Positions 3,098 to 53,941 of a DNA stretch of 55,675 nt are shown piece by piece (the first letter of the stretch is position 1; each line of letters starts with the position of its first letter). Source of the DNA: Burkholderiales bacterium (GTDB lineage Bacteria; Pseudomonadota; Gammaproteobacteria; Burkholderiales; Burkholderiaceae_E); contig JAFKGG010000369.1 in assembly GCA_017307915.1 (NCBI GenBank), positions 1 to 55,675 of the forward strand, read 5' to 3'. The position numbers and the translations under genes are program-made. The notes beneath the pieces are model-generated. The model saw nothing but the letters and a program-made list of their open reading frames with translations, was not told the origin of the DNA and did no database searches.

Positions 3098-3176
3098 GAA
3101 GAGGCTGCGCGTTCAGCGGTGAAGTCTGAAGGGTGATGGGCGTCGGCCCGAAGCAGTGCGAGTGCTGCGCATCGAT

Positions 3177-3209
3177 GGGTGCACGAGGCGGTCGCCACCC
3201 CGTGCACCC
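3177..3209. other. intergenic hairpin between receptor gene and acyl-CoA dehydrogenase gene
   Basis: A perfect 9-bp inverted repeat (gggtgcacg at 3177-3185, cgtgcaccc at 3201-3209), with a further ccgtgcacg copy about 12 nt downstream. There is no T-run on the minus strand, so it is more likely an mRNA-stabilising or attenuating hairpin after the highly expressed receptor gene than a full terminator. Confidence 0.5.
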
Positions 3210-3235
3210 CTGCATCCCGTGCACGCCTGGCCTGA

Positions 3236-6367: not shown

Positions 6368-8210
6368 CTATGCTCCGTAGATGATCTCGAGTTCGCGCGC
6401 GAACTTCTTGTTGATCAGGCCGCGGCGAACCTTCTGCGTGGCGGTCAGTTCGCCGTCGTCGTGATCCAGCTCTTTCTCCAGCAGCACGAACCGGCGGATG
6501 TTTTCCACGCGAGCGAACTTGGCATTGACTTCGTCGACGACGCTCTGGATCAGCTCGTGCACCTCGCCCATCTGGGTCAGCGATTTGAAGGTCGTATACG
6601 GCAGGTTGCGCTCGGCGGCCCAGCGGCCGACGCTGTCGAAATCGATCTGGATCAGGCCGCCCAGGAATTTGCGGCCTTCGCCGACCACGATGGCTTCGCG
6701 AACGAAGGGGCTGTCCTTGAGCGCGTTCTCGATTTCCGACGGGGCGATGTTCTTGCCGCCACTGGTGATGATGATCGCCTTCTTGCGGTCGACCACGGCG
6801 ATCTCGTCTTCGCCACGCAGCTCGACGATGTCGCCGGTAGCCAGCCACCCATCGGGCGACATGATGTCGGCGGTGCCCTGATCGTCGAACAGGTAGCCCT
6901 TGAAGACGCCGGGCGAGCGCACGAAGACCTCGCCGTCTTCGGCCACCTTCCATTGCACGCCTTCCATCGCAGGGCCGCAGCTACCCGAGATGAACGGCCG
7001 GCCGGGCACCTGCACGAAGCACAGGCCGCCGGCTTCGGTCAGGCCGTAGCCCTGCCCTACCGGCAAACCGATGACGTCGAAGAACTTCAGCGTCTCGGGC
7101 GACACCGAGGCGCCGCCGCACATGCGGGTGTGCGTGCGATTCAACCCCATGTGGCGCTGCATGTTGCGAAACAGCAGGCCATACCAGAACGCGAACTCGA
7201 GCTTGTCGCGCAGCGCGATCAGATGCCCGTGCACGGCGCGGCGGTCCGACAGCACGCGTCCGCGCCTCATGCCGATGCGATACATCCACTGCTGCAAGCG
7301 GCCGCTGTCCTTCATGCGGAACTCGAAGCTCTGCTGCAGTTTTTCCCAGATGCGCGGCACGCCCAGGAAGAAGGTGGGCGCGATCTCGCGGATGTTGCCG
7401 GCGACCGTGTCGATGGACTCGGCGAAGTTCACGCAGCCGCCCGACAACAGGTGCTGCACGGTGGAGTAGCTGCGCTCGGCCACGTGGCACAGCGGCAGAT
7501 AGCATACCGACTCGAACGGCTTGTCGGTCATCCTGCGCGCCACCATGTACGCATAGGCGCCGTAGACGAAATTGCGGTGCGTCAGCATCGCCCCCTTCGG
7601 CGGCCCGGTCGTGCCCGAGGTGTACACGAGGATGTTGACGTCGTCGGGCATCAGCGCGTCGATCGACTCGTCGAGCCGGCGCTCGGCGTCAGGGTGCTCG
7701 GCGGCATATTCGTCGCCCAGTTCGAGCAGCCGGGCGAACCCGTGCGGGCGCCCCGGCGCGTAGCGGCGCAGCCCCTTCATGTCGATGCAGAAGATGTGCT
7801 CCAGGTGCGGCAGCCCGTCGCCGTTGGCCATCGCATCGAGCACCTTGTCGGTCTGCTCCTGGTCGCCGGTGATCGCCAGCCTGGCGCGGCAGTGGCCCGC
7901 GATGTACTGCACCTCGGGCCAGGGGTTGGTCGGGTAGATGCCCACCACCTGCACGCCGATCATCTGCGCGCCCAGATCGGCATAGAACCATTCCGGCACG
8001 TCTTCGGCGGCGATGATGAGGCGGTCGCCGCGCGACAGGCCCAACTGCATCAGCCCGAGCGCCGCGCGGCGCGCATCGCGGTAATAGTCGGCCCAGGTGC
8101 GGCCGCGCCAGACGCCCTGCACCTTCTCGCGCAGCGCCACCTGGCCGCCGCGCTCCCGGGCACGCAGGCGCAGCAGGCCCGGCATCGTCGCCTCGCCCCG
8201 GATCAGCTTG

Positions 8211-8224
<14 letters not shown>
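6368..8224 (-). CDS. AMP-dependent acyl-CoA synthetase (FadD15/long-chain type)
   Basis: Adenylate-forming ligase of 618 aa that activates a carboxylic acid to its CoA thioester using ATP. The phosphate-binding motif YTSGTTGPPKGAML is at 201-214, GYGLTEAGG follows in the middle of the protein, and the hinge region GWLATGDIVEL and the K-rich VDRKKAIIITSGGKNI segment are intact. The start at 8224 follows GAGGAGG and overlaps the LivG stop by 14 nt. It is sandwiched between the ATPase and permease genes, which suggests that uptake and activation are coupled. Long-chain specificity is a family label; the real substrate may be aromatic. Confidence 0.9.
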
Positions 8225-9001
<777 letters not shown>

Positions 9002-9005
<4 letters not shown>

Positions 9006-9832
9006 GACAGCCATCTCTTGCGACGCTTGTAGTGCTTCACGTCTTTCATGTGGGTGCGGCCCGCCTGCGAGGACAGGCCCAGGTAGAACTCGCGCACGTC
9101 TTGATTGCGGCGCAGTTGTTCGCTGGTGCCGTCGAGCACGACGCGGCCGTTCTCCATGATGTAGGCGTAGTCGGCGATCGCCAGCGCCCGGCTGGCGTTC
9201 TGCTCGACCAGAAGAATGGTCAGCCCGGCCGCTTCGCGCAGGCGGCCGATGCTGTCGAAGATCTCGGTCACGATCAGCGGCGCCAGACCCAGCGAAGGCT
9301 CATCGAGCGCCAGCACCTTCGGCTGGCTCATCAGCGCGCGACCGATCGCCACCATCTGCTGTTCGCCGCCCGACAGATAGCCGGCGATCTGCCTGCGCTT
9401 GTCGGCCAGGCGTGGAAACAGCCGATAGACGTAGTCGCGCGCCTCGGCCAGTTTGCCGGCGCTTTGCAGATGCGCGCCCACCACCAGGTTCTCATCGACG
9501 GTCAGCGTGGCGAACAAGCGCCGCCCTTCGGGCACCTGCACCATGCCGCGTTTGACGATCAACGGCGCGGGCGCGCGTTCGACGGCTTCGCCGAACAGGT
9601 GGATCGAGCCTTTCTCGATCTCGCCGTCTTCGGCATCGAGCACGCCCGAAATCGCTTTCAGCACGCTGGATTTCCCGGCGCCATTGGAACCGAGCAGTGC
9701 CACGATGCTGCCGGCGCGCACCTCGAGCGACACGTCGCGCACGGCCTCGATAGCGCCGCCGTAGACGATCTGGATGTTGTGCACGGCCAGCGCCGGCGGG
9801 GCGGCGGCGGTCGATGCGGATGGATTTGTCAT
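9002..9832 (-). CDS. livF: ABC transporter ATP-binding protein (LivF-like)
   Basis: Second ATPase of the transporter, 276 aa. Walker A GSNGAGKSS is at 48-56, then YLSGGEQQM signature and LALDEPSLGLAP Walker B. It carries a basic C-terminal tail (KDVKHYKRRKRWL) that exceeds classical LivF. It is the first gene of the operon and has a 20-bp operator-like palindrome only 15 nt upstream of its ATG. If the -10 assigned to that site is right, the leader would be just a few bases, so either the mRNA is nearly leaderless or the real start lies slightly downstream. Confidence 0.9.
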
Positions 9833-9847: not shown

Positions 9848-9867
9848 TAGTCCGTCGCGTCGGTCTT
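9848..9867. promoter_or_regulatory. operator-like palindrome, site A (upstream of livF)
   Basis: TAGTCCGTC-GC-GTCGGTCTT, matching the shared consensus TARWCCGWC-NN-GWCGGWYTW. On the minus strand it lies between a possible -35 (TTTAAA) and a -10-like AATTAT at 9843-9848. It should govern the transporter/ligase/acyl-CoA dehydrogenase operon. The size and symmetry suit a TetR-family repressor; the protein is not identified. Confidence 0.7.
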
Positions 9868-9910
9868 TAAATTGCGAACATTATGTGGAAGAAAGCAGGG
9901 ATGGGCCCAC

Positions 9911-11179
9911 CTAGGGCTTACCCGTAACCGTCTCCGATCCCGCAAGAACGTCCTTCAGCGGCACGGCCTCGTCGGCCAGCCGTTCTGCATCGATATGCAC
10001 CGGCTGCGCCAGCGCACGACGAGCCAGCATGAATTCGCCCGGCCGGTTGACCGCATCGACGGCCAGCAGGCGCGAGGCATGCAGATAGAACGCGCAGAAG
10101 CTGCGCTTGCCAGGATCGCCGCGCAGCACGCAGCGGTCATGCCCCTGTGACAGCCCGGCCATCTGCAGCTTGAGTTCGTATTGATCCGACCAGAACCATG
10201 GCACGCTGCGGTTCGGCTTGGGCTTGCCGCACAGCCACGACGCGGCGGCGCGCGCCTGTTCGAGCGCATTGGGCACCGATTCGAGCCGCAGCTCGCGGTC
10301 GGCAAGCGCGTGGTGCTGCAGCGTGCAGTCACCCGCCGCCATGATGTCGGGATCGGCCGTGCGCGCGAGTTCGTCGACCCGGATGCCGTCGCGGCTCGCC
10401 AAGCCGGCCGCCGCCGCGGCCTCGATGTTCGGCAGCATGCCGATCCCCGCTACCACGACATCGGCGGCGATGCGCTGTCCGTTGCTGCACTGCACGGCCG
10501 TGATGCGGCCGCCCTCGCAGATCACGCGCTCCACGCCGGTGCCGGTCAGGATCCGCACGCCCGCCTCGCGATGCACCTGCTCATAGAAGCGCGCAACCTC
10601 GGCCCCCGCGACGCGCGCCAGCACGCGCGGCTGCGCCTCGATCACCGTGACTTCGGCGCCCAGCCCACGCGCCGACGCGGCCACTTCGAGCCCCACGTAG
10701 CCGCCGCCCACCACGACCACGCGCGCTCCCGGGGCCAGGTTCGCGCGAATGCCGTCGGCATCGGCCAGTGTACGCAGGTAGAAGAGATTGGCCGGCGGAT
10801 GTTGCGGATCGATGCCCTCGCAGGCCAGCGGCCGCGGCCGCCCACCGGTGCACAGCGCGAGCTTGTCGTAGTGCAGCACCGAACCGTCGGCCAGCGTCAC
10901 GGTATGTGCCGTGCGATCGATCGATGTCAGCCGGGCACCCGGCAGCCGTTCGATGTGTGCCGCCTCATAAGCCGAGGCCGGGCGCAAGGCCAGCGCGTCG
11001 GCCTCGCACTTCCCCAGCAGATAGGCCTTCGACAGCGGCGGGCGCTGATAGGGCACACCGGTTTCGTCGCCGAGCACAATGATGCGCCCGGGCCAGCCGC
11101 CCTGGCGCGCGGCGATCGCGAGTTCGCTGCCTGCGTGCCCCGCGCCGACGATGAGCAGTTCGCCGCCTTGTGTCTCCAT
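9911..11179 (-). CDS. NAD(P)H:ferredoxin reductase, FAD-dependent (putidaredoxin/BphA4 type)
   Basis: Flavoprotein reductase of 422 aa that passes electrons from NAD(P)H to a [2Fe-2S] ferredoxin. The FAD-binding motif GAGHAGSELAIAA is near the N-terminus and the NAD(P)-binding motif VVVGGGYVGLEVA in the middle, followed by the TADPDIMAAGDC segment that closes the FAD site. The ATG at 11179 is preferred over TTG at 11206, because the probable -10 TATAAT (minus strand, 11210-11215) puts transcription initiation near 11203. It shares the operator with the dioxygenase and is the obvious reductase for the ferredoxin at 19860. Confidence 0.9.
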   Translation of the reverse strand: METQGGELLIVGAGHAGSELAIAARQGGWPGRIIVLGDETGVPYQRPPLSKAYLLGKCEADALALRPASAYEAAHIERLPGARLTSIDRTAHTVTLADGSVLHYDKLALCTGGRPRPLACEGIDPQHPPANLFYLRTLADADGIRANLAPGARVVVVGGGYVGLEVAASARGLGAEVTVIEAQPRVLARVAGAEVARFYEQVHREAGVRILTGTGVERVICEGGRITAVQCSNGQRIAADVVVAGIGMLPNIEAAAAAGLASRDGIRVDELARTADPDIMAAGDCTLQHHALADRELRLESVPNALEQARAAASWLCGKPKPNRSVPWFWSDQYELKLQMAGLSQGHDRCVLRGDPGKRSFCAFYLHASRLLAVDAVNRPGEFMLARRALAQPVHIDAERLADEAVPLKDVLAGSETVTGKP

Positions 11180-11213
11180 GCTCGCCTTCGCCGATTTTTT
11201 CAGCAAACCATTA

Positions 11214-11233
11214 TAGTCCGACTCGTCGGTCTA
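11214..11233. promoter_or_regulatory. operator-like palindrome, site B with perfect -10 (upstream of ferredoxin reductase)
   Basis: TAGTCCGAC-TC-GTCGGTCTA, the most symmetric copy of the consensus. On the minus strand its left end overlaps a perfect TATAAT at 11210-11215, so the palindrome fills the -35/-10 spacer. A repressor bound here would block RNA polymerase. Confidence 0.75.
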
Positions 11234-11258
11234 AAGACGAGCCCACCGAAGCAAAGTT

Positions 11259-11286
11259 GCGACGAACCGCACGGGGTTCTCGTCGC
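11259..11286 (-). terminator. probable terminator of the dioxygenase operon
   Basis: Inverted repeat with one bulge: gcgacgaacc at 11259-11268 pairs with ggttctcgtcgc at 11275-11286. On the minus strand it follows the flavoprotein stop (11318) and is followed by aactttgc, a weak T-stretch. A second hairpin (gagggc/gccctc, 11305-11327) overlaps the stop codon. Confidence 0.5.
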
Positions 11287-11317
11287 AGACCCAGCTCTCT
11301 CACCGAGGGCCTGGGCT

Positions 11318-12622
11318 TCAAGCCCTCGCCAACGCCGCCAGTGCCTTGTTGGCCGCCTCGCGCCCCGTATAGGCGCAGGCCTGCGTGCCGCCGTCGCCGT
11401 AGTCCTTCACGGCATCGCCCACGTGCCACAGATTGGCCAGCGGCGTGTCCTGCGGCATGTCGAAGCCGGCGCACGAACGCTGCGCCGGCCATTCATCGCG
11501 CATGACGCGGATGGAGAGCATCTTGGCGTCCTTGAAGCCGGGGAACAGCTCGCGCAGATCGGCCAGCGATTCCTCGATCTCGACCTTGTCGTCGAAATCG
11601 CCGATGGCCGGGCGTGGCACGGCATAGGCCACGTACTGATACCAGCCCGCCGGCGCCAGCTCGGGGCAGGTGGCGGTGAGTTCGCCCATGTTGCACAGGC
11701 GCCGCGTCTTGCCGAAAGTGACCAGGCCGGGCGCATCGAGCAGGCGCTCGCGCGTGGCGAAGTTGATCACGATGTTGGCGGCCGGCCGCGGCACCGACTT
11801 CGCGCGCGCGATGTAGTCGGCACCCAGCGCTTCGGCGCCGGGCAGCGTCGCGGTGGCAGTCGGCCCGATGTTGCTGATGAACGCGTCGGCGTGCACACGG
11901 TGCACTGCGCCTTCGTGCTCGACGTCGAGCGCGATGACGCGGCCGTTCTGCGCGTGCATCGCCACGACCGGCGCGTTCAGCCAGATCTCGCCGCCTTTGG
12001 CGCGAATGCCGTCGCCCAGGTCGTTCCACAGCCCCACGGTGCCGCGTGGGCAGAAGCCGAAGCGCTTGAAGGCGCCCTTCTGCGCGAAGTAGACGAGGAA
12101 GGCGCGCGCCGGCAGCTCGTCGGCGTTGGCGGCGAAGATGGCGGCGCACAGGTTGCGAAAGATCGCGTGCACCGTCTCGTTGGACGTGTATTGCTTGAGC
12201 CACTGCTGCGTGCTGAGCTTGTCTTCGGGCAGATCGCCGGCGCGCGCGTCGGCGAACTTGGCGCCGATCTTGGCGGCCTGCTTGGTGAAGGTGCCCAGCA
12301 GCATGCCCCAGCCGCCCTTGGCCACGTTGATCACCTTGCCGTCGATGTAGAACACCGTGGCCGGGTTGGGTTCGCGGATGTCGAGTGGCACGCCCAGCAG
12401 GTCGAAGGTTTCCTCGAAGAGGCCGCCGAGCTCGATGGCGATGGCGCCGACGTTGACGATGTGCCCGTCGATGACTTCACTTGACGCGCGGCCGCCCAGC
12501 CGGTTCAGCCGCTCGACCAGCAATACCTTCTTGCCGGCCGCGGTCAGGCGCGCCGCCGCGCTCATGCCGCCGGCGCCGGCGCCGAAAACGACCGCGTCAT
12601 AGCGGTCCGTGCTCGCATTCAT
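11318..12622 (-). CDS. FAD-dependent oxidoreductase, phytoene-desaturase/amine-oxidase-like
   Basis: Flavoprotein of 434 aa. The N-terminal Rossmann motif is VVFGAGAGGMSAAARLTAAGKKVLLVE followed by RLGGRASS, the arrangement of the NAD(P)/FAD phytoene dehydrogenase and monoamine oxidase group. The C-terminal closing motif is LWHVGDAVKDYGDGGTQACAYTGREAA. The ATG at 12622 has GAGGAG 8 nt upstream. It is the last gene of the dioxygenase operon, 45 nt after the thiolase. Carotenoid synthesis is unlikely here: a desaturase or oxidase of the catabolic intermediate is the more sensible guess. Confidence 0.8.
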   Translation of the reverse strand: MNASTDRYDAVVFGAGAGGMSAAARLTAAGKKVLLVERLNRLGGRASSEVIDGHIVNVGAIAIELGGLFEETFDLLGVPLDIREPNPATVFYIDGKVINVAKGGWGMLLGTFTKQAAKIGAKFADARAGDLPEDKLSTQQWLKQYTSNETVHAIFRNLCAAIFAANADELPARAFLVYFAQKGAFKRFGFCPRGTVGLWNDLGDGIRAKGGEIWLNAPVVAMHAQNGRVIALDVEHEGAVHRVHADAFISNIGPTATATLPGAEALGADYIARAKSVPRPAANIVINFATRERLLDAPGLVTFGKTRRLCNMGELTATCPELAPAGWYQYVAYAVPRPAIGDFDDKVEIEESLADLRELFPGFKDAKMLSIRVMRDEWPAQRSCAGFDMPQDTPLANLWHVGDAVKDYGDGGTQACAYTGREAANKALAALARA

Positions 12623-12667
12623 CAAACGTCTCCTCGAATCTGTTCGTTGTCGTGAGCGGCTGCCGCG

Positions 12668-13870
12668 TCAGGCGCCCTGCAAGCCCACGATGGCGATGGC
12701 GCACACGTTCTGCGACGGCTGCCCGCCCAGGTTGTGCAGCAGCCCGGTCTTCGGGTTCGAGAGCTGGCGCGGCACGGCACGGCCCTGCAATTGCAGGTAG
12801 ATCTCGTAGAGCATGCGGATGCCGCTGGCGCCGATCGGATGGCCGAAGCATTTCAGGCCGCCGTCGATCTGGCACGGCACTTCGCCGTCGGCGTCATACA
12901 CGCCGTCGAGCACGTCGCGCACCGCGCCGCCGATTTCCGACAGGCCGAGGTCTTCCATCGTCACCAGCTCGGTGATCGAGAAGCAGTCGTGCACTTCGGT
13001 CATGCTCAGGTCTTTGCGCGGATTGCCGATGCCGGCTTCGGCGTAGGCTTTTTTCGCGGCGACGCGCACCGTGTGCAGATAGCTGCCGTCCCACTGGCTC
13101 GATTGCAGCTCCCAGCCATTCGATACGGCCACCTGCAAGGCCTTGAAGGTCACCAGGTCTGTCTTGCCCATCGCGCGCGCGATCTCGGGCGTGGTGACGA
13201 TCACTGCCGCCGCGCCGTCGGAGACGCCGCAGCAATCGAACAGGCCCAGCGGCGCCGCGATGGTCGGAGCCTTCAGGCATTGCTCTTCGGTGATCGGTTT
13301 TTGCAAGTGCGCCTTCGGGTTCTTCGCGCCGTTGGCGTGACTCTTCACCGACACGTGCGAGATGGCGCGCTTCAGTAGCGCCGCGTCGATGCCGTGCCGC
13401 GCGCGATAGGCCGTGGCAAGCTGCGCGAAGTTGGCCGGCGCCACCGCGTTCGGATACCACTGCGGAATGTAGGTGCCGACCTGCGCCATCGGCAGCCCGC
13501 CGTAGCCGGTGTCCTTCAGCTTCTCTACGCCCAGCGCCAGCGCGATGTCGCAGGCGCCGGCCGCCACCGCGTATACGGCGGCACGAATGGCCTCGGAACC
13601 GCCGGCGCAGAAGTTCTCCACGCGCGTCACACCGATGTTCGGCAGCCGCAGCGCGATGCTCATCGGCGTGCCGCCGCGGCCGGTGCCCACGTCGTCCATG
13701 TGCGTGGAATACCAGGCCGCGCCGAGCTGTTCGGGCTCGATGCCGGCGTCGGCCATCGCCTCGTTGTACGCCTCGACCATCAGATCTTCGGGGCTGGCGT
13801 CCCAGCGCTCGCCGAACTTGCTGCAGCCCATTCCGAGGATGGCGACCTTGTCCTTGATGCCGTTGGCCAT
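12668..13870 (-). CDS. thiolase family protein (SCP-x-like)
   Basis: Thiolase-fold enzyme of 400 aa. The nucleophile is C88 in VENFCAGGSEAIRAA; the HDCFSITEL motif and CFGHPIGASG near the C-terminus supply the other active-site residues of SCP-x-type thiolases. The ATG at 13870 has AAGGAG at 8 nt. The frame stays open upstream, but that part overlaps the fusion gene. It lies 11 nt after the HMG-CoA-synthase-like/DUF35 fusion, its likely physical partner. It probably cleaves a 3-oxoacyl-CoA; a retro-aldolase role like that of Ltp2 is the alternative, since Ltp2 also works with a DUF35 protein. Confidence 0.85.
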   Translation of the reverse strand: MANGIKDKVAILGMGCSKFGERWDASPEDLMVEAYNEAMADAGIEPEQLGAAWYSTHMDDVGTGRGGTPMSIALRLPNIGVTRVENFCAGGSEAIRAAVYAVAAGACDIALALGVEKLKDTGYGGLPMAQVGTYIPQWYPNAVAPANFAQLATAYRARHGIDAALLKRAISHVSVKSHANGAKNPKAHLQKPITEEQCLKAPTIAAPLGLFDCCGVSDGAAAVIVTTPEIARAMGKTDLVTFKALQVAVSNGWELQSSQWDGSYLHTVRVAAKKAYAEAGIGNPRKDLSMTEVHDCFSITELVTMEDLGLSEIGGAVRDVLDGVYDADGEVPCQIDGGLKCFGHPIGASGIRMLYEIYLQLQGRAVPRQLSNPKTGLLHNLGGQPSQNVCAIAIVGLQGA

Positions 13871-13881
13871 GCGTCGGCTCC

Positions 13882-15342
13882 TTAGCGGGTGAAAGCGCCG
13901 CGCACCGGCGTCGCCTTCCAGAAGTAGCGGGTGAAGTGGCGGCGTTCGTCGGTGTCCTTGATGCGGAACACCATTTCCATCGCCGTGCCGGCGTCGACCT
14001 CGCCGACGTCCAGGTCGGTGAAATCCATCAGGATGCGGCCGCCGCCGTCGAAATCGATCTGGCCGTAGTGGTGCGGCGGCGCGGGGTGATAGGACAGGTA
14101 TTCCGCCGACCACGACAGGATGCTGGCCGGCCGGTCGGCAAGCTTGTGGGGTCTTTGCGTATCTTGCAGCGGCTTGCCCTGGTCGTACGACAAACGCGAC
14201 GGCGGGAAGTGCACGCTGCCGGTGACCTCGCAGCGGCCGCCGACCAGGCCCAGCAACGCCGAGCGATGGCGCCAGGCGGTCGACAACGCGGTCTTCTTGT
14301 CCTGCTCGCCGCGCATGCCGCGTTCGAATTGCAGCCGGCCCTTGAAGGCCAGGAACTTGGTGTAATTGCGTTCTTCCACGCCGCGCGCCAGCCATTGGCT
14401 CACGCCGCGCACCGGGCGAAACGAACCGATGGCATCGGTGACGCGCAGCACCAGCGCCTGCGCACCGCTGCCGAACTGCGCCAGCACGATCAGCTCGCCG
14501 GGCCGGGCACGTTCGAGCAGATGAGCCAGCATCAGCAACGCGTGCGGCAGGCCGCTGTCACCGATCTGATCGAGCAGCGCATCGGCCACGGCTTCGGGGC
14601 GGATGCCGCAGGTCTTGGCGACCTGCGCATCCATCCTGGCGAAGCTGGAGGGGAAGATGAAGTGATCGACCTGCGCCGGCGCCAAGCCGGCCTGCTGCAA
14701 CGCTGCGGCCACCGCGCGCGGCACCAGCTTGCCGATGCCTTCGTCACGCACCCAGCGCTCTTCCCAGTGGTAATCGACGTCTTCGCCGGCGGCGCGGAAG
14801 TGGTCGACGAAATCGACCGACACCGTGCCCGCGCCCAGGAACTCGGCCAGCACCTCGTCCTTGCCGATCAGCATCGCGGCAGCCGCGTCGCCATAGTCCA
14901 GTTCCTGCTGGCTGGCCGCCGGCGCCTTGCGCTCGTCGGCGGCCAGCACCAGCGCGTCGCCGCCGCCGGCCTGCACGCGCGCCACCGCCTGCGCAATCGC
15001 CGACAGCGCCACGCGCTGCGAGCCGCCCATGTCGATGGCCTCGATGTCTTCGTCCAGCGTCAGCGCGCCGGCCACCACGCCTGCGTTCAGGCGCTCGGTG
15101 AACGGCAGCGTGTCGGAGGCCAGGAACACGGCACGCACGTGCCCGCGATCGTCGCCCGGGCCCAGGCAATCACGCGCGGCGGCCACTGCCATCGTGATGC
15201 TGTCCTCGTCCCAGTTGGCCATCGCACGCGTGCCCTTGCGCGCCGCGAACTGCGGCGCATACCAGGCATTGGCCTGCGCGACCGCCTGCCGCGCCAGACG
15301 CAGGCGCGGCACGTAGGCGCCGAATCCGGTGATTCCGATCAT
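13882..15342 (-). CDS. HMG-CoA-synthase-like domain fused to DUF35 (OB-fold) domain
   Basis: A 486-aa two-domain protein. Residues 1 to about 340 resemble HMG-CoA synthase/KAS III. Residues from about 355 form a DUF35 unit: a degenerate Zn-ribbon (GGRCEVTGSVHFPP, only one Cys left) and an OB-fold. In the synthase domain the loop that normally carries the catalytic Cys (ACYGG type) reads IDMGGSQR at 103-110, with Asp104 at the Cys position, so condensation by the usual mechanism is not expected. The ATG at 15342 overlaps the esterase stop by ATGA. The next gene is a thiolase, which suggests a thiolase/HMGCS/DUF35 assembly like the archaeal one. Confidence 0.8.
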   Translation of the reverse strand: MIGITGFGAYVPRLRLARQAVAQANAWYAPQFAARKGTRAMANWDEDSITMAVAAARDCLGPGDDRGHVRAVFLASDTLPFTERLNAGVVAGALTLDEDIEAIDMGGSQRVALSAIAQAVARVQAGGGDALVLAADERKAPAASQQELDYGDAAAAMLIGKDEVLAEFLGAGTVSVDFVDHFRAAGEDVDYHWEERWVRDEGIGKLVPRAVAAALQQAGLAPAQVDHFIFPSSFARMDAQVAKTCGIRPEAVADALLDQIGDSGLPHALLMLAHLLERARPGELIVLAQFGSGAQALVLRVTDAIGSFRPVRGVSQWLARGVEERNYTKFLAFKGRLQFERGMRGEQDKKTALSTAWRHRSALLGLVGGRCEVTGSVHFPPSRLSYDQGKPLQDTQRPHKLADRPASILSWSAEYLSYHPAPPHHYGQIDFDGGGRILMDFTDLDVGEVDAGTAMEMVFRIKDTDERRHFTRYFWKATPVRGAFTR

Positions 15343-16271
15343 GGGGCTGTCTTTCCGGTGGAAGCGGCCTCGAAGCGCGCCGCGAAGAAACGACCGCCGG
15401 CGGCCAGCGCGTCGCGCGCCTCGGCCAACACGGCGGGAAACTGCTGGAACACGTGGATCATGCCGGGCCACACTTGCAGCTCGGCCTGCGTGCCCGCGGC
15501 AAGCGCCTTGTGCACGAAGGCTTCGGAGTCGCTGACGACCGTCTCGCGTTCGCCCACCTGCAACAGCAGCGGCGGCAACGCGGCCAGTTCGTCGGGCGCG
15601 GCGAACAGCGGCGAAGCCAGCGCATCGGTGGCGTCGCCCGCGTCGCCGAGATAGTTGCGCGCCAGCGCGACGATCATCGGCCGCTGGTGGATCGGGTCGA
15701 GCGCGGCGCACGTCTGGTAGCTCTCCCCCGCGGCGGTCAGGTCGGTCCACGCCGACAAGCCCCAGTAGGCGATGGGCAACGGCTCGCCGCAGCGGTGCAG
15801 CGCCAGCAGCAGCGACAAGCCCAGGCCGCCACCGGCGGAATCACCCGCGATCGCGATCTGATGCGTGCCCACGCCCTGCGCGCGCAGCCAATCGTAGGCG
15901 GCGAGCGCGTCTTGCAGCGCGGCGGGATAGCGGTGCTCGGGCGCCAGCCGATAGTCCACGCCCAGTACGCGCGCACCCGCGGCGGCTGAGACGCAAGCCA
16001 TCAGCTCGCGATGCGAGGCGAGCGATCCGACCTGGAAACCGCCGCCGTGGAAATACAGCACGATGCGGTCGTTGCGTGCACCGGGTGCGGTCACCCATTG
16101 GCACGGCACGCCGGCCGCATCCACCGCTTCGACGATGGCCTGGCTCGGCGCATCGAACAGTTCGTCCCAGTCGGCGCGCATCTGCGCCACCGGCGTATCG
16201 CGGCGCCAGCGGCCATAGACGGCCTTGACGCGTGCGACGATGGCGTCGATGCCTGGATGTCCGGTGTTCAT
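15339..16271 (-). CDS. alpha/beta hydrolase, HSL family
   Basis: Hormone-sensitive-lipase-type hydrolase of 310 aa. The oxyanion motif HGGGF is at 75-79, the nucleophile elbow GDSAGG at 143-148 (Ser145), and the C-terminal His lies in GMIHVFQQF. It is cytoplasmic, with no signal peptide. It overlaps its neighbours by ATGA at both ends (16268-16271 and 15339-15342). In this operon it could hydrolyse an ester, lactone or CoA thioester made by the oxygenase pathway; the sequence does not say which. Confidence 0.88.
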   Translation of the reverse strand: MNTGHPGIDAIVARVKAVYGRWRRDTPVAQMRADWDELFDAPSQAIVEAVDAAGVPCQWVTAPGARNDRIVLYFHGGGFQVGSLASHRELMACVSAAAGARVLGVDYRLAPEHRYPAALQDALAAYDWLRAQGVGTHQIAIAGDSAGGGLGLSLLLALHRCGEPLPIAYWGLSAWTDLTAAGESYQTCAALDPIHQRPMIVALARNYLGDAGDATDALASPLFAAPDELAALPPLLLQVGERETVVSDSEAFVHKALAAGTQAELQVWPGMIHVFQQFPAVLAEARDALAAGGRFFAARFEAASTGKTAP

Positions 16272-17137
16272 GCGCCGCACCCCATGCCACCGGAAACGCC
16301 CAGTACCTCGCCGGTGACGTAGCTCGCGCCTTCGGAAACGAGAAACGCCACGGCAGCGGCCACCTCTTCCGGCGTGCCGAGCCGCCCCACCAGCGTGGTG
16401 CCGGTCATCGCCGCCATCATCCTGTCGCCGCCGTGCTGCACGGCCTGCCGCAACAGCGGCGTGTCGATCGGGCCCGGTGCGACCACATTGGCCGTGATGC
16501 CCTTGCGCCCGTTCTCGCGCGCGATGGAGCGAGTGAAGGCAATGACGCCGCCCTTGGCCGCCGCGTACACCGAGCCGCCGCGCGAGCCGAGCCGGCCGGC
16601 TTCTGAGGCGATGTTGACGACGCGACCGTAGCCGCCGGCCTGCATGGCATCGAGCACGGCATGCGTGGTGTTCAGCACCGATTCCAGGTTGACGGCGAGC
16701 AGGCGGCGCCAATCGGCCGGCGAGGTCAGCGTGAAGAACGCGTGCTGGTCGATGCCTGCGCTGTTGACCAGGATCTGGAACGGACCATGTTCGCGCACGG
16801 CGGCCTGCACGCCGTCGAAGTCGGTGACGTCGAGTTGCAGGCCCGTGCCGCCGATCGACTGCGCCAGGCTGATGGCCGCCTCGCCTTGCAGATCGGCGAC
16901 GACCACTGCGGCGCCGTCGGCAGCAAGCCGCCGTGCAATCGCTGCGCCGATGCCGCTGGCACCGCCGGTGATCAGGGCACGCCGGCCGGTCAACGGGGCG
17001 GGTATCGCGGCGGATGCCGAGGCAGGCACCGCGACGACGGCTTGGCCGGACGCCTCGGCGTGAGCCGGGGCAGCCGCCGAGTCAGACGCCGGCCTGGCCG
17101 TCGGGGTCAACACCGGAGCAGGTGTCGGCGCAGCCAT
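16268..17137 (-). CDS. short-chain dehydrogenase/reductase with Ala/Pro-rich N-terminal extension
   Basis: Classical SDR of 289 aa. The cofactor motif TGGASGIG is at 57-64, and the catalytic set is S178, Y191 and K195 (YAAAK). Before the fold is an unusual low-complexity leader of about 48 residues rich in Ala and Pro (PTPAPVLTPTARPAS and so on). The start at 17137 is supported by a TGATG overlap with the upstream crotonase stop; no internal start has a good ribosome site. It may oxidise a cis-dihydrodiol or a 3-hydroxyacyl-CoA. Confidence 0.85.
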   Translation of the reverse strand: MAAPTPAPVLTPTARPASDSAAAPAHAEASGQAVVAVPASASAAIPAPLTGRRALITGGASGIGAAIARRLAADGAAVVVADLQGEAAISLAQSIGGTGLQLDVTDFDGVQAAVREHGPFQILVNSAGIDQHAFFTLTSPADWRRLLAVNLESVLNTTHAVLDAMQAGGYGRVVNIASEAGRLGSRGGSVYAAAKGGVIAFTRSIARENGRKGITANVVAPGPIDTPLLRQAVQHGGDRMMAAMTGTTLVGRLGTPEEVAAAVAFLVSEGASYVTGEVLGVSGGMGCGA

Positions 17138-17958
17138 CAGCGCCCCGTGAAGCGCGGCGCGCGCTTCTCGATCACGGCCGCCAGGCCTTCGCGCGCATCG
17201 GCCATGCCCGACAGCACGGCTTGCGTGTGATTCTCTTCGGGCATCGCAGCTTCCACGCCCTGCCCGATGCCGTTCCACAGCAAGCGCTTGGTATTGGCCA
17301 GCGCGGCCGGCGCACCGGCCGCGAGCTGCCGCACCAACGCGAAGGCTTCATCGCGCAGCTTGTCGTCGGACACCACGCGCGTGATCAGGCCGATCTCTTT
17401 GGCCTCCGCAGCACTGATCGTCGGATTGAGCATCAGGATTTCCATCGCGCGGCGCAGCCCCACCAACTGTGTCAGCGTGACCGACACGCCGGCATCCGGC
17501 ACCATGGCCACGCGCGTGGCGCCCGCCAGGAACTTGGCCGATTCCGCCGCCACCACGAAATCGCAGGAGCACACCAGCCCCATGCCGCCGCCGCCGGCCG
17601 CAAAGCCGTGCACCGCTGCGACCACCGGCGGGTTCAAGCGCAGCAACCCGGCCGCCACGAGCTGCAGATAGCTCGTCGCCACGCGGATGTAGTCGGGCAA
17701 GGCCTCGCCCTTGGCAAGGAAGGTATGCACATCGCCGCCGGCACAGAAGTTCTTGCCCTCGCCGGTGATCAGCACGCTGCGCACGCGGCCGTCGCCGTGT
17801 ACCTGCATCACGACTTCGTGCAGCGCCTTGAGCAGCTCGATGTTCAGCCCATTGGCCGATTCGGGCCGGTTCAGCCGGATGTGGGCCACGCCGTCGGCAT
17901 GCAGTTCCAGCAGGGCCGGGCCTTCGCCGACCAGGATGGTGGGAGCGTTATCCGTCAT
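17137..17958 (-). CDS. enoyl-CoA hydratase/isomerase family protein
   Basis: Crotonase-fold protein of 273 aa. The oxyanion motif FCAGGDV is at 71-77 and HGFAAGGGGMGL follows around 118-128. As in the crotonase at 172-981, the first hydratase Glu is missing and an Asp (D155, in MVPDAGVS) occupies the PaaG-type position, favouring isomerase or related chemistry. It begins 10 nt after the dioxygenase beta subunit and shares a TGATG with the SDR. It probably acts on the CoA-linked product of the oxygenase step. Confidence 0.87.
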   Translation of the reverse strand: MTDNAPTILVGEGPALLELHADGVAHIRLNRPESANGLNIELLKALHEVVMQVHGDGRVRSVLITGEGKNFCAGGDVHTFLAKGEALPDYIRVATSYLQLVAAGLLRLNPPVVAAVHGFAAGGGGMGLVCSCDFVVAAESAKFLAGATRVAMVPDAGVSVTLTQLVGLRRAMEILMLNPTISAAEAKEIGLITRVVSDDKLRDEAFALVRQLAAGAPAALANTKRLLWNGIGQGVEAAMPEENHTQAVLSGMADAREGLAAVIEKRAPRFTGR

Positions 17959-17968
17959 CGCGATCGCC

Positions 17969-18460
17969 TCAGATGAGGAAGGCCATGGAGTACAAGGCCG
18001 AGTGGTTGTTGACCAGCATCACTTTCTTCAGCGCCATGCGCAAACCCTCGGCCTCGCGGCGCAGCGTGTACTCGTTGCGCGAAGCCCAGAGCGTGTCGCC
18101 GCGCGTGTGCGACTCGAACACCAGCGCGTTGGCCGCGGCATGGATTTCGCGGCTGTCGTCCGAAACGATCTCGACGTTGGAGACCAGACGCCGCAACCGC
18201 GATTGCGGCGTCTGGCTGAAACGCTTGCCGGTGTGGTACTGCCGGATGCGCAGCGCGATGCGCGAGCGGTTGTCGTACAGGATCGACATCTTCTGCTCGG
18301 GATCGATGTCATCGCCGTTAGCGGGTACCCAGTAGACGCCGTCGTCGGTCCACAGGCTTTCCCAGGCGTCGTATTGATGCTCGTCTTGCAGTCGCGCTTC
18401 GCGGTAGATGAACTGCGTCACGTCTTCGAGCGTGGCGCGCTGTTCCGGCGTCATCGGCAT
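17969..18460 (-). CDS. aromatic-ring-hydroxylating dioxygenase, beta subunit
   Basis: Small structural subunit of a Rieske dioxygenase, 163 aa, the usual size, with the NTF2-like fold pattern (FIYREARLQDEHQYDAWESLW near the start, then DNRSRIALRIRQY). It overlaps the alpha-subunit stop by one base (TGATG at 18458-18462), so the two subunits are made together, as expected for an alpha-beta hexamer. In-frame ATGs at 18460 and 18454 are both possible; the first is coupled. Confidence 0.92.
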   Translation of the reverse strand: MPMTPEQRATLEDVTQFIYREARLQDEHQYDAWESLWTDDGVYWVPANGDDIDPEQKMSILYDNRSRIALRIRQYHTGKRFSQTPQSRLRRLVSNVEIVSDDSREIHAAANALVFESHTRGDTLWASRNEYTLRREAEGLRMALKKVMLVNNHSALYSMAFLI

Positions 18461-19752
18461 CAGGCCGCCTCCATCAGGGACTTGTAGTGGCGCCAGATGC
18501 CGCGCGTCGGCACCTCGTCGGTGTTGTCGCCGATCAGAAAGCCGTCTTCGTCGCGCCGTTCACGATGCTTGCCGCGCCCCAGGTAAAGCCATTCGGGATT
18601 GCGCATCTGCACGCCCATCTGCGTGCGCTCATACATCTCGGCGTCGTCGGCCAGCAGGAAGCCGGCCGGGCCGACCGAGCCCATCGTCTGCTGGCGCAGC
18701 CGGCGGTTCAGATCGGGCGCGCCCTTGAACTGCAAGGCGGTGACGTGCTGCACAGTCTCGTTCACCGCCAGCGGCTGGATCACGAAGATCTGGATCTCGG
18801 CGATGAACAGATTCGGAAAGATCATGACGTGCGGCGTGCCGTCGATCATGATGCGGCGCGCTTCTTCCTCGCCGTAGGCGGCGTTCATGTTCGCCACGTA
18901 GTCGGGCAGCTTGTCGGGCGTGGTGCCGAACCACGACAGCGGCACGTCGCGCTTGCGAAATTCCGGGCGCAGATCGTTCTCGGTGTGGCCGTTGCCGAAA
19001 TCGCGCGAGACGGCGGTGGACTCGGCGCTGTAGAGCGCACCGATGCCGCTTTGCGCCACCTCGAAGATCGAAGCGTGCACGAACGACGGGTGATAGCCGT
19101 CGGTCTCGTTCTCGACCAGGAACTTCCAGTTGGCCCTGACCTTGTGCTTGAGGAACCCGGCCGTGATCTCGACCTCGCCCTGCGGCGAGGTTTCGCACAG
19201 CGCGTCGATCGAGCGCATGGCCGGCCCCAGGTGTTCTTCCAGGCTCGGGCCCTGCGCGGCCATCGAGCCGAACACGAAGCCGCGGTAGCTGGCCACGCGC
19301 GCCACGCTGCCCAGGCCCAGCTCGCGGCGATCGACGCCTTCATAGCCGGAAGGAAACGGATAACCCTTCAGGGCGCCGTCATTGGAAAAGGTCCAGCCGT
19401 GATAGGGACAGGTGAACGAGCGCACGTTGCCGCCGTCGCTCATGCAAACACGGTTGCCGCGGTGCGGGCAGCGGTTGTGCAGCAGATGAATGGCGCCATG
19501 CCGGTCGCGCGTCATGATCACCGGTTCGGGGCCGATCGACTTCATCACGAAGTCATTGGCGTTCGGCACCTCGCTTTCGTGGCCGACGTAGACCCAGGTG
19601 CGGAACCAGATCTTGCGCAGTTCTTGCTGGTAGATGGCGGGGTCGGTATAGAGCGAGCCATGCACGTGCGCGGGGCGCACCAGCTCGTCCCAGCGCGGTG
19701 CAGGCCCGGCAGGCGCGATCGGCGCGGTGGGAAGGGTGGCGCAGTGTTCCAA
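18460..19752 (-). CDS. aromatic-ring-hydroxylating dioxygenase, alpha subunit (Rieske)
   Basis: Catalytic large subunit of 430 aa. Rieske [2Fe-2S] ligands are C95/H97 and C115/H118 (CPH and CPYH). The mononuclear iron site is in ENETDGYHPSFVH: D218, H221 and H226. The start is the TTG at 19752, preceded by GGAGACAGG. No ATG lies between it and the promoter, and starts further upstream would fall before the predicted transcription start near 19784. It is the first gene of the minus-strand operon and diverges from its ferredoxin. The aromatic or alicyclic substrate cannot be read from the sequence. Confidence 0.92.
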   Translation of the reverse strand: MEHCATLPTAPIAPAGPAPRWDELVRPAHVHGSLYTDPAIYQQELRKIWFRTWVYVGHESEVPNANDFVMKSIGPEPVIMTRDRHGAIHLLHNRCPHRGNRVCMSDGGNVRSFTCPYHGWTFSNDGALKGYPFPSGYEGVDRRELGLGSVARVASYRGFVFGSMAAQGPSLEEHLGPAMRSIDALCETSPQGEVEITAGFLKHKVRANWKFLVENETDGYHPSFVHASIFEVAQSGIGALYSAESTAVSRDFGNGHTENDLRPEFRKRDVPLSWFGTTPDKLPDYVANMNAAYGEEEARRIMIDGTPHVMIFPNLFIAEIQIFVIQPLAVNETVQHVTALQFKGAPDLNRRLRQQTMGSVGPAGFLLADDAEMYERTQMGVQMRNPEWLYLGRGKHRERRDEDGFLIGDNTDEVPTRGIWRHYKSLMEAA

Positions 19753-19794
19753 ACCTGTCTCCGGGGTTGCTGCTGCGAATCGTTGATGGAATAA

Positions 19795-19814
19795 TAGACC
19801 GACGGGACGGACTA
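19795..19814. promoter_or_regulatory. operator-like palindrome, site C (dioxygenase/ferredoxin divergent promoter)
   Basis: TAGACCGAC-GG-GACGGACTA, 20 bp. On the minus strand TATTAT (19791-19796) abuts it as a -10 for the dioxygenase operon; the plus-strand ferredoxin starts 46 nt to the right. One repressor bound here could control both directions. Confidence 0.75.
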
Positions 19815-19859
19815 TGTCAACGCACACCAGCCCGCCGTTCAGCAAGGAAAGATCACTGC

Positions 19860-20180
19860 ATGCCCACCGTCGTCTTCATCGATCACCACGGCACTACCTA
19901 CCGGGTCGAGGCGCCGCTCAACAAGAGCCTGATGCAGGTCGCGCTCGACCATTCGGTGCCCGGCATTCTGGGCGACTGCGGCGGCTCGTGCAGTTGCGCC
20001 ACCTGTCACGGCTACGTGGATCAGCCCTGGGTCGCGCAGTTGCCGCCGCGTTCGGAAACCGAGGTCTTCATGCTCGAGGGCGTGCCCGATCTGCGCGAGA
20101 ACAGCCGCCTGTGCTGCCAGATCCGGATGACGCCGGAGCTGGATGGCATCGTCGTTCACCTGCCCGAGGAGCAGGTCTAG
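19860..20180 (+). CDS. [2Fe-2S] ferredoxin, adrenodoxin type
   Basis: Ferredoxin of 106 aa with plant/adrenodoxin-type ligands C40, C46, C49 and C86 (C-x5-C-x2-C-x36-C). It starts at ATG 19860 after AAGGAAAG. It is divergent from the dioxygenase alpha gene and shares operator site C with it. It is the natural carrier between the FAD reductase at 9911 and the Rieske oxygenase. Its stop lies 7 nt from the stop of the convergent quinone reductase gene. An adrenodoxin-type carrier with a two-subunit oxygenase is a less common pairing than a Rieske ferredoxin. Confidence 0.93.
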   Translation: MPTVVFIDHHGTTYRVEAPLNKSLMQVALDHSVPGILGDCGGSCSCATCHGYVDQPWVAQLPPRSETEVFMLEGVPDLRENSRLCCQIRMTPELDGIVVHLPEEQV

Positions 20181-20187
20181 GACTGCC

Positions 20188-20931
20188 TCAAACGACGCGG
20201 CGATGTCCGGCCGTGCACGGCTCGACATCAGCTCTGAGCCGCCACTCAGGCGTGAAATCGGCCAGCGCGTGCGTTGCCATGGGTGCTTCGCACTCGATGT
20301 TTCTCAACCGCGCCGCGTATTGATCCAGGTATTCGCGGCGCTGCGCCGCGTCGGTGTATTGGATCGCCCAGCCGACGAAGGGCTGCAACACCTGCAGGCC
20401 GCTGTAGCCGAAGGTGCCGTACTGCAGGTGCCACAGGATGACGTCGCGCTGTCCCAGCAGGCCGTCGGGCTCCATCATGGCCGGAAAGCAGCCGGTGGTG
20501 AACACCAGCATCGCCTTGCGGCCTTTCAGGCCGCCATTGTCGAAGCGCATGCCGCCCGCGCCGTAGGCGGTGCCGTTGGCAAAGACGCGGTCGATCCAGC
20601 CCTTCATGATCGCGGGCACCGAAAACCACCATAACGGAAACTGCAGGATCAGCAGATCGCACGCGAGCAGCTTGTCGATCTCAGCCTGGATGTCGGCGGC
20701 GAAGCTGTGGCGCTGCGATGCGAGCTTCTGCTCGCGGTCATATTGCAGCGCATCCGGAAAACGCCGCTCGGTGAAATCGCTTACGCCGGCCACGGGATTG
20801 AAACCCATGGCGTACAGATCCGACACCACGACCTGATGGCCGCAGTCGCGCAGCGTCTGCACCGAACGATCCAGCAATGCCCGGCCGAACGACTTGGGTT
20901 CGGGATGGGCGAATACGATCAGCACCTTCAT
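20188..20931 (-). CDS. NAD(P)H dehydrogenase (quinone), flavodoxin-like fold
   Basis: Protein of 247 aa of the NQO1/MdaB family that reduces quinones by two electrons with a flavin. N-terminal MKVLIVFAHPEPKSFGRAL, the LLILQFPLWWFSVPAIMKGWIDRVF segment and the TTGCFP loop are typical. It is transcribed on its own with operator site D 35 nt upstream of its ATG, so it belongs to the same regulon. It may reduce a quinone produced by, or toxic to, the oxygenase pathway. Confidence 0.87.
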   Translation of the reverse strand: MKVLIVFAHPEPKSFGRALLDRSVQTLRDCGHQVVVSDLYAMGFNPVAGVSDFTERRFPDALQYDREQKLASQRHSFAADIQAEIDKLLACDLLILQFPLWWFSVPAIMKGWIDRVFANGTAYGAGGMRFDNGGLKGRKAMLVFTTGCFPAMMEPDGLLGQRDVILWHLQYGTFGYSGLQVLQPFVGWAIQYTDAAQRREYLDQYAARLRNIECEAPMATHALADFTPEWRLRADVEPCTAGHRRVV

Positions 20932-20965
20932 GGCGCTTCCTTGGTGGTAGCAACGCCGTCAATAA

Positions 20966-20985
20966 TAAACCGACACGACGGTTTT
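20966..20985. promoter_or_regulatory. operator-like palindrome, site D (upstream of quinone reductase)
   Basis: TAAACCGAC-AC-GACGGTTTT, the most diverged of the four copies but with the same core CCGAC-NN-GACGG. On the minus strand a TATTAT (20962-20967) abuts it as the -10, putting transcription start near 20955, 24 nt before the gene. Confidence 0.65.
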
Positions 20986-21085: not shown

Positions 21086-22066
21086 TCAATCCAGCTTGAT
21101 GCGCCCTTCCCTGCGCAGCCTGGCCCACTTGTCGGTTTCGGCGCGCATCAGCGCGCCGAACTCGGCCGGCTGCTTGCTGAACGCTGGCTCGGCGCCCCAG
21201 CCCAGCCAGCGCTCCTTCACGTCCGCGCCCTGCATGATGCGCGCGATCTCGGCGTGCAGCTTGTTCAGCACGGCCGGCGGCGTGGCCGCGGGCGCGAGAA
21301 AACCATACCACGGGTTCACGTCGTAGCCGGGCAGCGCCGCCTCGGCCACCGTCGGCAGCTCGGGAGCGCTGCTGGCGCGCGTCGCGCCGGTGACAGCCAG
21401 CGCCCGCACCTTGCCGGTCTTCGCATGCGGCAAGGCGATGGGCGCGCCGGCGAACGACACCTGGACGCGATTGCCGATCAGGTCGTTCATCGCTTCGTTG
21501 ATGCCGCGATACGGCACGTGGACCATCTTCACGTCGGCCATGTAGTTGAACACCTCGCCGGCCAGATGGGTCAGACTGCCATTGCCTGAAGAGCCGAAAT
21601 TGACGTCGTTCGGGTGCTTGCGCGCATAGTCGATCAGCTCGCGCACGTTCTTCACCGGCAGCGCCTGGCTGGTCACGACCACCAGCGGCAGGCTGGCGAT
21701 CAGCGAAATCGGCGCGAAATCCCGCAGATTGTCTTCAGGCTTGCGTCCGCGTGCCCCCGAATCCATCAGCATCGACGAGGCACCGACGAACAGCGTATAG
21801 CCATCGGGAGGCGAATTGGCGGCCAGGTCAGCGCCGATCACCAGGCCCGCGCCGGGCTTGTTCTCGATGACGAACGACTGCCCGAGCGACGTGGCCAGCT
21901 TCTGCGCGACGTACCGCGCCAGCAGGTCGGCCGGGCCGCCCGGACTGTACGGCACGATGACCTTCACCGCGCGCTCGGGATAATCGGCGCGCGCCGCCGA
22001 TGAATAGGCGACGGCGGAAAAGAGCGCGGCAGCAGCGAATGCGATACGCAGCAGAGGCTTTCTCAT
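21086..22066 (-). CDS. tripartite tricarboxylate transporter receptor (Bug family)
   Basis: Periplasmic solute receptor of 326 aa. Residues 1-27 form a signal peptide ending ARA; the mature protein begins DYPERAVKVIVPYSPGGPADLLARYVA, the hallmark of Bug/TctC proteins, with the HVPYRG loop near residue 185. No tctA/tctB membrane genes are in the window, as is usual for orphan Bug receptors. It is the last gene of the GntR operon, 9 nt after the racemase-fold gene; its ribosome site (TAGGAG) overlaps that stop codon. The ligand is unknown. Confidence 0.92.
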   Translation of the reverse strand: MRKPLLRIAFAAAALFSAVAYSSAARADYPERAVKVIVPYSPGGPADLLARYVAQKLATSLGQSFVIENKPGAGLVIGADLAANSPPDGYTLFVGASSMLMDSGARGRKPEDNLRDFAPISLIASLPLVVVTSQALPVKNVRELIDYARKHPNDVNFGSSGNGSLTHLAGEVFNYMADVKMVHVPYRGINEAMNDLIGNRVQVSFAGAPIALPHAKTGKVRALAVTGATRASSAPELPTVAEAALPGYDVNPWYGFLAPAATPPAVLNKLHAEIARIMQGADVKERWLGWGAEPAFSKQPAEFGALMRAETDKWARLRREGRIKLD

Positions 22067-46830: not shown

Positions 46831-46888
46831 ATCATTCCCTGGCTGCATTCCCGGACTGCCGGCGTCTCGCTCCGGCACTTCGCAATGA

Positions 46889-52662: not shown

Positions 52663-52691
52663 TGTAGCCAAGCGAAGCCCGGATGGCTACA
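52663..52691. other. hairpin at the Bug stop codon, before the nitrilase gene
   Basis: Perfect 8-bp stem TGTAGCCA (52663-52670) and TGGCTACA (52684-52691), which includes the Bug stop codon on the minus strand. It may stabilise the receptor mRNA or reduce read-through into the nitrilase gene. Confidence 0.5.
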
Positions 52692-53679: not shown

Positions 53680-53941
53680 TGTTCTCCCCGATTGCACGCT
53701 GCGCATCGATCGACGACATGACGCCGATGCACAGGCTGGAGCAGAGTCGCAGAGTTAGCCGGCGGCCACAATTTGGAAGTTTCGAATCGGCGATTAGCGC
53801 CAGGCTAAAGCTGTGGGCGCTGACATGCAGGTGCAACCGCGCACGGCTGAAGAGCGCGAGATGGCGGAGCGCTATCGCAGCGCGGAGGCGATGATGCGCG
53901 GCCGCCCGTGGGTCACCGAGCAGCACAGCGCCAGCGCGCCA
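53680..53941. other. intergenic region, no gene assigned
   Basis: A 262-nt segment between the Bug start and the Rpn remnant. It should hold the promoter of the Bug-nitrilase operon. A plus-strand open stretch (around 53813-53941) with a charged AEEREMAERYRS segment may be a gene fragment, but I cannot assign it. Confidence 0.35.

Follow-up and report, generated by a model that had tools for sequence, protein, structure and literature searches.

PaaR (BCAL0210) of Burkholderia cenocepacia is a TetR repressor whose operator, the inverted repeat ACCGACCGGTCGGT, lies between the −35 and −10 elements and recurs at several separate paa promoters. As described in sections of the primary paper, insertion in the PaaR gene causes derepression, and the inverted repeat is required for negative control (PMC2770484). 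In part of a review, PaaR is stated to be released by phenylacetyl-coenzyme A (phenylacetyl-CoA) and not by phenylacetate (PMC9493321). Similarly, sections of a study on MbdR of Azoarcus sp. CIB describe a TetR repressor released by 3-methylbenzoyl-CoA (PMC4424350). Here we analyze a 55,675-nucleotide stretch from a Burkholderiales bacterium (assembly GCA_017307915.1, contig JAFKGG010000369.1; hereafter the window), in which four 20-bp palindromes precede genes of a Rieske dioxygenase system. The palindromes are very probably TetR operators, and the regulon they define appears related to that of PaaR yet distinct from it, with a CoA thioester as the presumed releasing ligand. A likely regulator, which a preliminary description of the window could not see, was found on another contig of the same assembly. 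In the literature searched, mostly judged by title or the start of the abstract, we recognized no description of this regulon.

All four palindromes given in the preliminary description are present in the window as written, at the following positions.

9848–9867, minus strand: putative operator before livF; exact match, overlapped by the −10-like hexamer AATTAT.
11214–11233, minus strand: putative operator before the ferredoxin reductase gene (fdr); exact match, overlapped by TATAAT.
19795–19814, no strand assigned: putative operator between the divergent genes for the Rieske dioxygenase alpha subunit (alpha) and ferredoxin; exact match; on the minus strand it is the 18-bp spacer in TTGACA-N18-TATTAT.
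20966–20985, minus strand: putative operator before the quinone reductase gene; exact match, overlapped by TATTAT.

These four palindromes are far beyond chance. A window scan allowing up to 3 mismatches returned 8 strand-hits (0.63 expected), which are the four palindromes alone, and 0 of 100 shuffles reached 8 hits. Across the whole host assembly (G000; 6,110,206 bases in 521 contigs, the window being contig C119), the motif matches exactly on at least one strand at six places, four in the window and two on contig C82 (1812–1831 and 2596–2615). The expected number of exact matches genome-wide is 0.009 from base composition and 0.002 under a first-order Markov model, both computed from window composition; random density is thus excluded. 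No 1-mismatch place beyond the six was found in the assembly. A further seven places with 2 mismatches equal the background level, the reversed-pattern control giving 19 + 20 hits with as many as 2 mismatches allowed.

Contig C82 (8,655 bp; locus L014) encodes, on its minus strand, two TetR proteins, TetR2 (2694–3284) and TetR1 (1939–2553), and a second Rieske alpha subunit (alpha2, 482–1756) 75% identical to that of the window. One C82 palindrome is located between the two TetR genes, ~43 bp before the TetR1 start codon, and the other lies ~56 bp before alpha2. Target promoters and the promoter of the regulator itself therefore both contain the palindrome, as in an autoregulated TetR regulon. 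This agrees with the preliminary description, which had seen no regulator gene in its region 1, had placed a TetR-type regulator elsewhere and had proposed looking for a TetR gene carrying the motif in its own promoter. Consistently, no TetR was seen among the region-1 proteins scanned. A single regulator cannot be assumed, however, because two TetR paralogues are present. The window TetR at 46953 was rejected as the regulator, since it has TetR_N only and no TetR_C_24.

TetR1 and TetR2 are 43% identical. Both contain the helix-turn-helix domain TetR_N (PF00440; E = 1.9e-17 and 7.5e-16, respectively) and the all-helical ligand domain TetR_C_24 (PF17932). Their recognition-helix stretches are nearly the same (SKSHLYHYF and TKSMLYHYF), with the ligand domains diverged. 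A model of the TetR1 orthologue from L015 (mean predicted local distance difference test score, pLDDT, 92) shows a TetR fold, with 3ccy as the best structure match (template modeling score, TM, 0.89). The nearest solved structures include TetRs that respond to CoA esters: AibR with isovaleryl-CoA, FadR with stearoyl-CoA, and KstR2.

The −10-like hexamers abut or overlap the palindromes, as previously noted. The alpha promoter, with the palindrome as its spacer, is kept in L025 and almost so in L095; at the other window promoters the −35 matches are weaker. The livF ATG (9832) is only ~10 bases downstream of the proposed −10. On the ferredoxin side of site 19795, no convincing −10 was seen. For fdr, ATG 11179 is the more likely start because TTG 11206 leaves no room for a leader. 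In 64 oriented promoters, a −10-like hexamer at constant offset scored 3.61 of 6 versus 1.26 for background; the terminal TA of the motif itself accounts for part of this score, and divergent promoters give rise to a mirror peak. The earlier suggestion that a bound protein would block initiation fits PaaR, whose operator lies between −35 and −10; repression itself we infer.

Operator anatomy was derived from 56 sites in 22 stretches of 19 genomes or records. Seven positions (5, 7, 9, 12, 14, 16 and 19) are invariant, partly by circularity, as the set was picked at up to 1 mismatch and many of its loci are closely related. The outer TA is conserved, some positions are A/T-degenerate, and the centre bases are CG in 3 of the 56 sites. 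In genomes of ~65% G+C, the 6 bases flanking the sites on each side are 82% A+T.

A TetR1 scan of genome contigs returned 79 loci, 12 of which encode a TetR1 60–76% identical to the host protein. Exact sites are present in all 12, which come from Variovorax WS11, Hydrogenophaga, Ramlibacter, Pseudacidovorax, Caenimonas, Pseudorhodoferax and one betaproteobacterial contig. Where the fetched stretch allows, window genes lie alongside TetR1, most of them ~60–90% identical. In relatives, sites occupy two intergenic regions that face a divergent TetR gene, those of fdr with tetR1 and of the acyl-CoA dehydrogenase gene with tetR2, as well as the alpha/ferredoxin interval and the region before livF. 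The livF site is kept in L015, L016, L017, L019, L020, L021, L022, L024, L025 and L028, and the alpha/ferredoxin site in L025, L095 and G413, and with 1 mismatch in G068. A site with at most 1 mismatch precedes 14 of 16 TetR1 genes, all but those of L025 and G068, and 10 of 12 TetR2 genes, the L025 site having 2 mismatches and the host gene lacking a site; the TetR paralogues of L023 and L028 (44%), which group with the TetR1 clade, were excluded from the 16. Five of six loci with alpha and TetR1 or TetR2 have the alpha/ferredoxin site (G000, L025, L095, G413 and G068, but not G025). Palindromes at corresponding promoters, together with TetR genes beside them, thus suggest TetR operators. A Myxococcales locus also encodes a 46% identical TetR with an exact site immediately upstream. 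The window genes had been called a previously unlinked set, a view we correct here: in G413, of the same order, the pathway and TetR genes share one contig (~36 kb), and in Pseudorhodoferax L025 they lie within ~19 kb.

In Hydrogenophaga L016, a 1-mismatch site at 17729 precedes genes for the tripartite ATP-independent periplasmic (TRAP) transporter proteins DctP, DctQ and DctM, and similar sites occur in L017 (18209), L019 (17752) and L021 (17719); this suggests that the L016 regulon includes a second uptake system. Separately, ~35% identical TetR relatives in metagenome contigs of Hyphomicrobiales/Rhizobiales (L032–L034) are preceded by the imperfect repeat TAGATCAAACGATTGGTCTA, whose outer bases are similar to those of the regulon sites and whose inner bases differ. 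L033 also encodes a Rieske alpha subunit 65% identical to that of the window.

Distribution was examined in 399 genomes of the order and 74 of the family, with a motif slightly stricter than the pattern of the preliminary description. Alpha (E ≤ 1e-100) was found in 2 of the 399 order genomes (G000 and G413) and the strict motif in 3 (G000, G413 and G328). The single exact hit in G328 was rejected as an operator, as it lies within a 656-codon open frame. TetR1 homologues of 31–36% identity are encoded in 14 other order genomes that lack the strict motif.

Several results weigh against a TetR regulon of this kind. The reversed control hit 14 of the 399 order genomes versus 3 for the pattern, so isolated hits elsewhere are weak evidence. 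Within the host's family the strict motif was found in 1 of 74 genomes, the host only. This strict pattern under-counts, however, because G068, G025 and G061 of that family, with a TetR1 of 60% and TetR2s of 57% and 61% identity, respectively, have sites beside the same genes that deviate from the original pattern at 1, 1 and 0 positions. L025 and G068 carry only degenerate sites at tetR1, and host TetR2 is without a site of its own. L161 has alpha and TetR2 and no site at alpha within 3 mismatches. Relatives of alpha in Sulfitobacter, Rhodococcus and an ibuprofen plasmid have no site at the alpha promoter, which indicates that the dioxygenase module does not always come with this regulation. 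Finally, C82 and the window are separate contigs whose junction is unseen.

Control of these promoters by the host PaaR itself, with the pathway as a branch of the phenylacetate regulon, is improbable, although the operator core CCGAC-NN-GTCGG is identical and a PaaR, recognized by its position near paaA, is encoded in the same genome. The host paaA and PaaR genes are linked on C56, neither C82 nor the window contig; there, a PaaR-clade TetR (79700–80290) and the site CCGACCGGTCGG before paaA are found. This site, identified by eye and two mismatches from the core, has other flanks and escapes the 20-bp pattern even when 2 mismatches are allowed. Either the ACCGACCGGTCGGT core or ACCGTCCGGTCGGT occurs upstream of paaA in 3 of 6 genomes with paaA located (G227, G321 and G350), and no PaaR core was seen just upstream of paaA in G203 and G413. 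A CG centre, rare among regulon sites, is present in the paa site of the host and at paaA in three further genomes, and this difference may keep the two regulons apart. In relatives, dedicated TetR genes stand at the sites. Moreover, TetR1, TetR2 and PaaR form separate supported groups in a tree that leaves the order among the groups unresolved, with labels assigned per fetched locus so that TetR1 and TetR2 of one locus share a label; the PaaR clade comprises 12 rows, paa-linked TetRs including the host's, and TetR1 and TetR2 fall outside it. Because PaaR and a paa site exist separately in the host, the regulon is related to PaaR's but distinct from it.

Action of only one of the two TetR proteins on the sites, with the other vestigial or controlling different genes, is possible, though less likely than not: in the stretches read, G068 has TetR1 alone and G061 TetR2 alone, with sites beside each, and the host TetR2 gene lacks a site. 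Countering this, the recognition helices hardly differ, and the same palindrome occurs in the promoters of both TetR genes in relatives. We rejected a role of the palindromes as RNA hairpins or terminators in leaders, which is very improbable. They are inverted repeats near start codons, but they overlap the −10 and so lie upstream of the presumed transcript start in the forward direction, and no T run follows them in the window. Furthermore, A/T positions 4/17 and 8/13 are complementary in just 15 and 16 of the 56 sites, respectively; such degeneracy suits a DNA-binding dimer that tolerates A or T, not an RNA stem. Equally hard to credit is a MerR-type activator that would untwist a promoter with a long spacer by binding the palindrome within it. 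The palindrome does fill the −35/−10 spacer, of 18 bp at the alpha promoter, yet it is TetR genes that are conserved next to the sites, PaaR as a relative acts by repression, and no MerR gene was found among the proteins scanned, a subset of the open reading frames.

Most likely, then, TetR1, perhaps together with TetR2, represses the pathway, including the window and C82 promoters. A TetR1 dimer would bind TA-R-W-CCG-W-C-NN-G-W-CGG-W-Y-TA, and TetR2 probably binds the same sites. Filling the −35/−10 spacer or overlapping the −10, the bound protein would keep RNA polymerase out, and TetR1 would limit its own synthesis. The substrate is proposed to enter via a Liv-type transporter and to be activated by an adenosine monophosphate (AMP)-forming ligase (6368–8224). 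By analogy with PaaR, MbdR and the fold neighbours, the releasing ligand is most likely a CoA thioester formed in the pathway; on its binding, TetR would leave the operators and allow joint induction of uptake, ligase, Rieske dioxygenase, electron carriers and the CoA enzymes of the dioxygenase operon. More speculatively, and with some doubt on our part, the near-identical recognition helices and diverged ligand domains might point to a two-repressor switch, in which TetR1 and TetR2 share operators by competition or as heterodimers. The pathway would then open only with two CoA intermediates, an early substrate and a later product.

The genes that follow the palindromes, named in the preliminary description as those for an ABC transporter ATPase, a ferredoxin reductase, a Rieske/ferredoxin pair and a quinone reductase, were borne out by Pfam. 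The genes are listed below, with the domain matches in brackets.

1937–3097, minus strand: acyl-CoA dehydrogenase (Pfam).
3236–4396, minus strand: Liv-type periplasmic binding protein (Peripla_BP_6).
4449–5440, start approximate, minus strand: LivM-type permease (BPD_transp_2, residues 532–808 of the 834-residue open reading frame 4452–6953).
5495–6367, minus strand: LivH-type permease (BPD_transp_2).
6368–8224, minus strand: AMP-forming acyl-CoA ligase, the presumed maker of the CoA thioester (AMP-binding).
8211–9014, minus strand: LivG-type ATPase (ABC_tran, BCA_ABC_TP_C).
9002–9832, minus strand: LivF-type ATPase, first gene past operator 9848 (ABC_tran).
9911–11179, minus strand: ferredoxin reductase, likely start ATG 11179, longest open reading frame from TTG 11206 (Pyr_redox_2, Reductase_C).
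11318–12625, minus strand: FAD-dependent oxidoreductase of the amine oxidase fold, last in the dioxygenase operon by position (Amino_oxidase).
12668–13870, start approximate, minus strand: thiolase-like protein (thiolase domains; NCBIfam match from residue 176 of a long open reading frame).
13882–15342, start approximate, minus strand: 3-hydroxy-3-methylglutaryl-CoA (HMG-CoA)-synthase-like protein with a C-terminal oligonucleotide/oligosaccharide-binding (OB) fold (domain matches).
15339–16271, start approximate, minus strand: alpha/beta hydrolase (Abhydrolase_3).
16268–16990, start approximate, minus strand: short-chain dehydrogenase (adh_short_C2).
17137–17958, minus strand: enoyl-CoA hydratase (ECH_1).
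17969–18460, minus strand: Rieske dioxygenase beta subunit (Ring_hydroxyl_B).
18460–19752, minus strand: Rieske dioxygenase alpha subunit, first gene past operator 19795 (Rieske, Ring_hydroxyl_A).
19860–20180, plus strand: 2Fe-2S ferredoxin, divergent from alpha (Fer2).
20188–20931, minus strand: NAD(P)H quinone reductase-like protein of the flavodoxin fold (Flavodoxin_2).

The livF operon probably ends with the acyl-CoA dehydrogenase gene, which in relatives is preceded by a separate operator site shared with tetR2. The thiolase, HMG-CoA-synthase-like/OB-fold protein, hydratase, short-chain dehydrogenase and hydrolase suggest CoA-ester breakdown after dioxygenation. Matches of the window alpha to models of 3-phenylpropionate and benzoate dioxygenases are far below the cut-offs. 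The adjoining thiolase and HMG-CoA-synthase-like/OB-fold genes, both within the oxygenase operon, form a pair that we take to be reminiscent of archaeal thiolase/HMG-CoA-synthase/DUF35 complexes. A third host Rieske alpha subunit is encoded on C328 (8163–9395; L163); it is 45% identical to that of the window, and the stretch read contains no site at up to 3 mismatches.

Elsewhere in the window, TctC/Bug-type solute receptors are encoded at 21086–22066 and 52687–53706 (both Pfam-confirmed) and at 24338–25327 (recognized just by its use as a similar query), and a hydantoinase B/A pair at 42962–46878. The window hydantoinase B has matches of 81–87% identity in 7 of 17 congeners, one of the seven partial, which identifies this portion of the contig as native to the genus. 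We rejected the idea that the window is a mis-binned contig, given these matches and the agreement in tetranucleotide composition among the window, C82 and C56 (r = 0.97–0.99). The core-only pattern ACCGWCNNGWCGGT occurs at six places in the host genome, two in the regulon and three within long open frames (C111, C254 and C500). At the sixth (C355, 391–404; L168), the PaaR-like core palindrome ACCGACCAGTCGGT lacks the outer TA and stands some dozens of bases upstream of a different TetR_N gene, which may encode an additional regulator whose operator is related.

The regulon recurs in a number of aromatic-degrading genera: relatives from several genera of Comamonadaceae, and from the family to which the host belongs, carry TetR1, TetR2 or both with the palindrome at equivalent promoters. 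Its genes form a list of candidates, and the TetR pair might serve as a sensor, for seeking the substrate of the Rieske dioxygenase, which is distantly related to that of ibuprofen degradation. The ipf cluster on pIBU218 of Rhizorhabdus wittichii MPO218 encodes a Rieske alpha subunit of 42–44% and a beta subunit of 44% identity, with an OB-fold protein, an AMP-binding ligase and an ABC transporter substrate-binding protein alongside. However, its stretch has one chance-like core match within 1 mismatch, away from the alpha gene. We read this alpha gene as ipfA from its position and part of a published account, in which ipfA expression is reported to be independent of ibuprofen (PMC9195938).

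Among TetR repressors, MbdR is similar in controlling an aromatic CoA pathway from several operators, one at its own promoter, as far as sections of the source describe it (PMC4424350). Its operator ATACN10GTAT is unrelated, however, and its pathway is anaerobic. The acyl-CoA-pathway TetRs AibR, KstR2 and FadR are fold neighbours of the TetR1 model but share 17–21% identity and belong to different pathways with operators of their own. The closest likeness is to PaaR, also a TetR repressor controlling a CoA-thioester pathway, with the core CCGAC-NN-GTCGG and its −35/−10 placement in common. TetRs near paaA, the host's included, are nevertheless 31–33% identical to TetR1 and form a separate clade, and the regulon sites are set apart by their conserved outer TA, A/T-degenerate positions and seldom CG centre. 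The targets here are a Rieske dioxygenase system instead of paa genes, and two TetR paralogues are present. The regulon thus suggests one group of TetR proteins in which a shared operator core persists although the CoA pathways under control differ.

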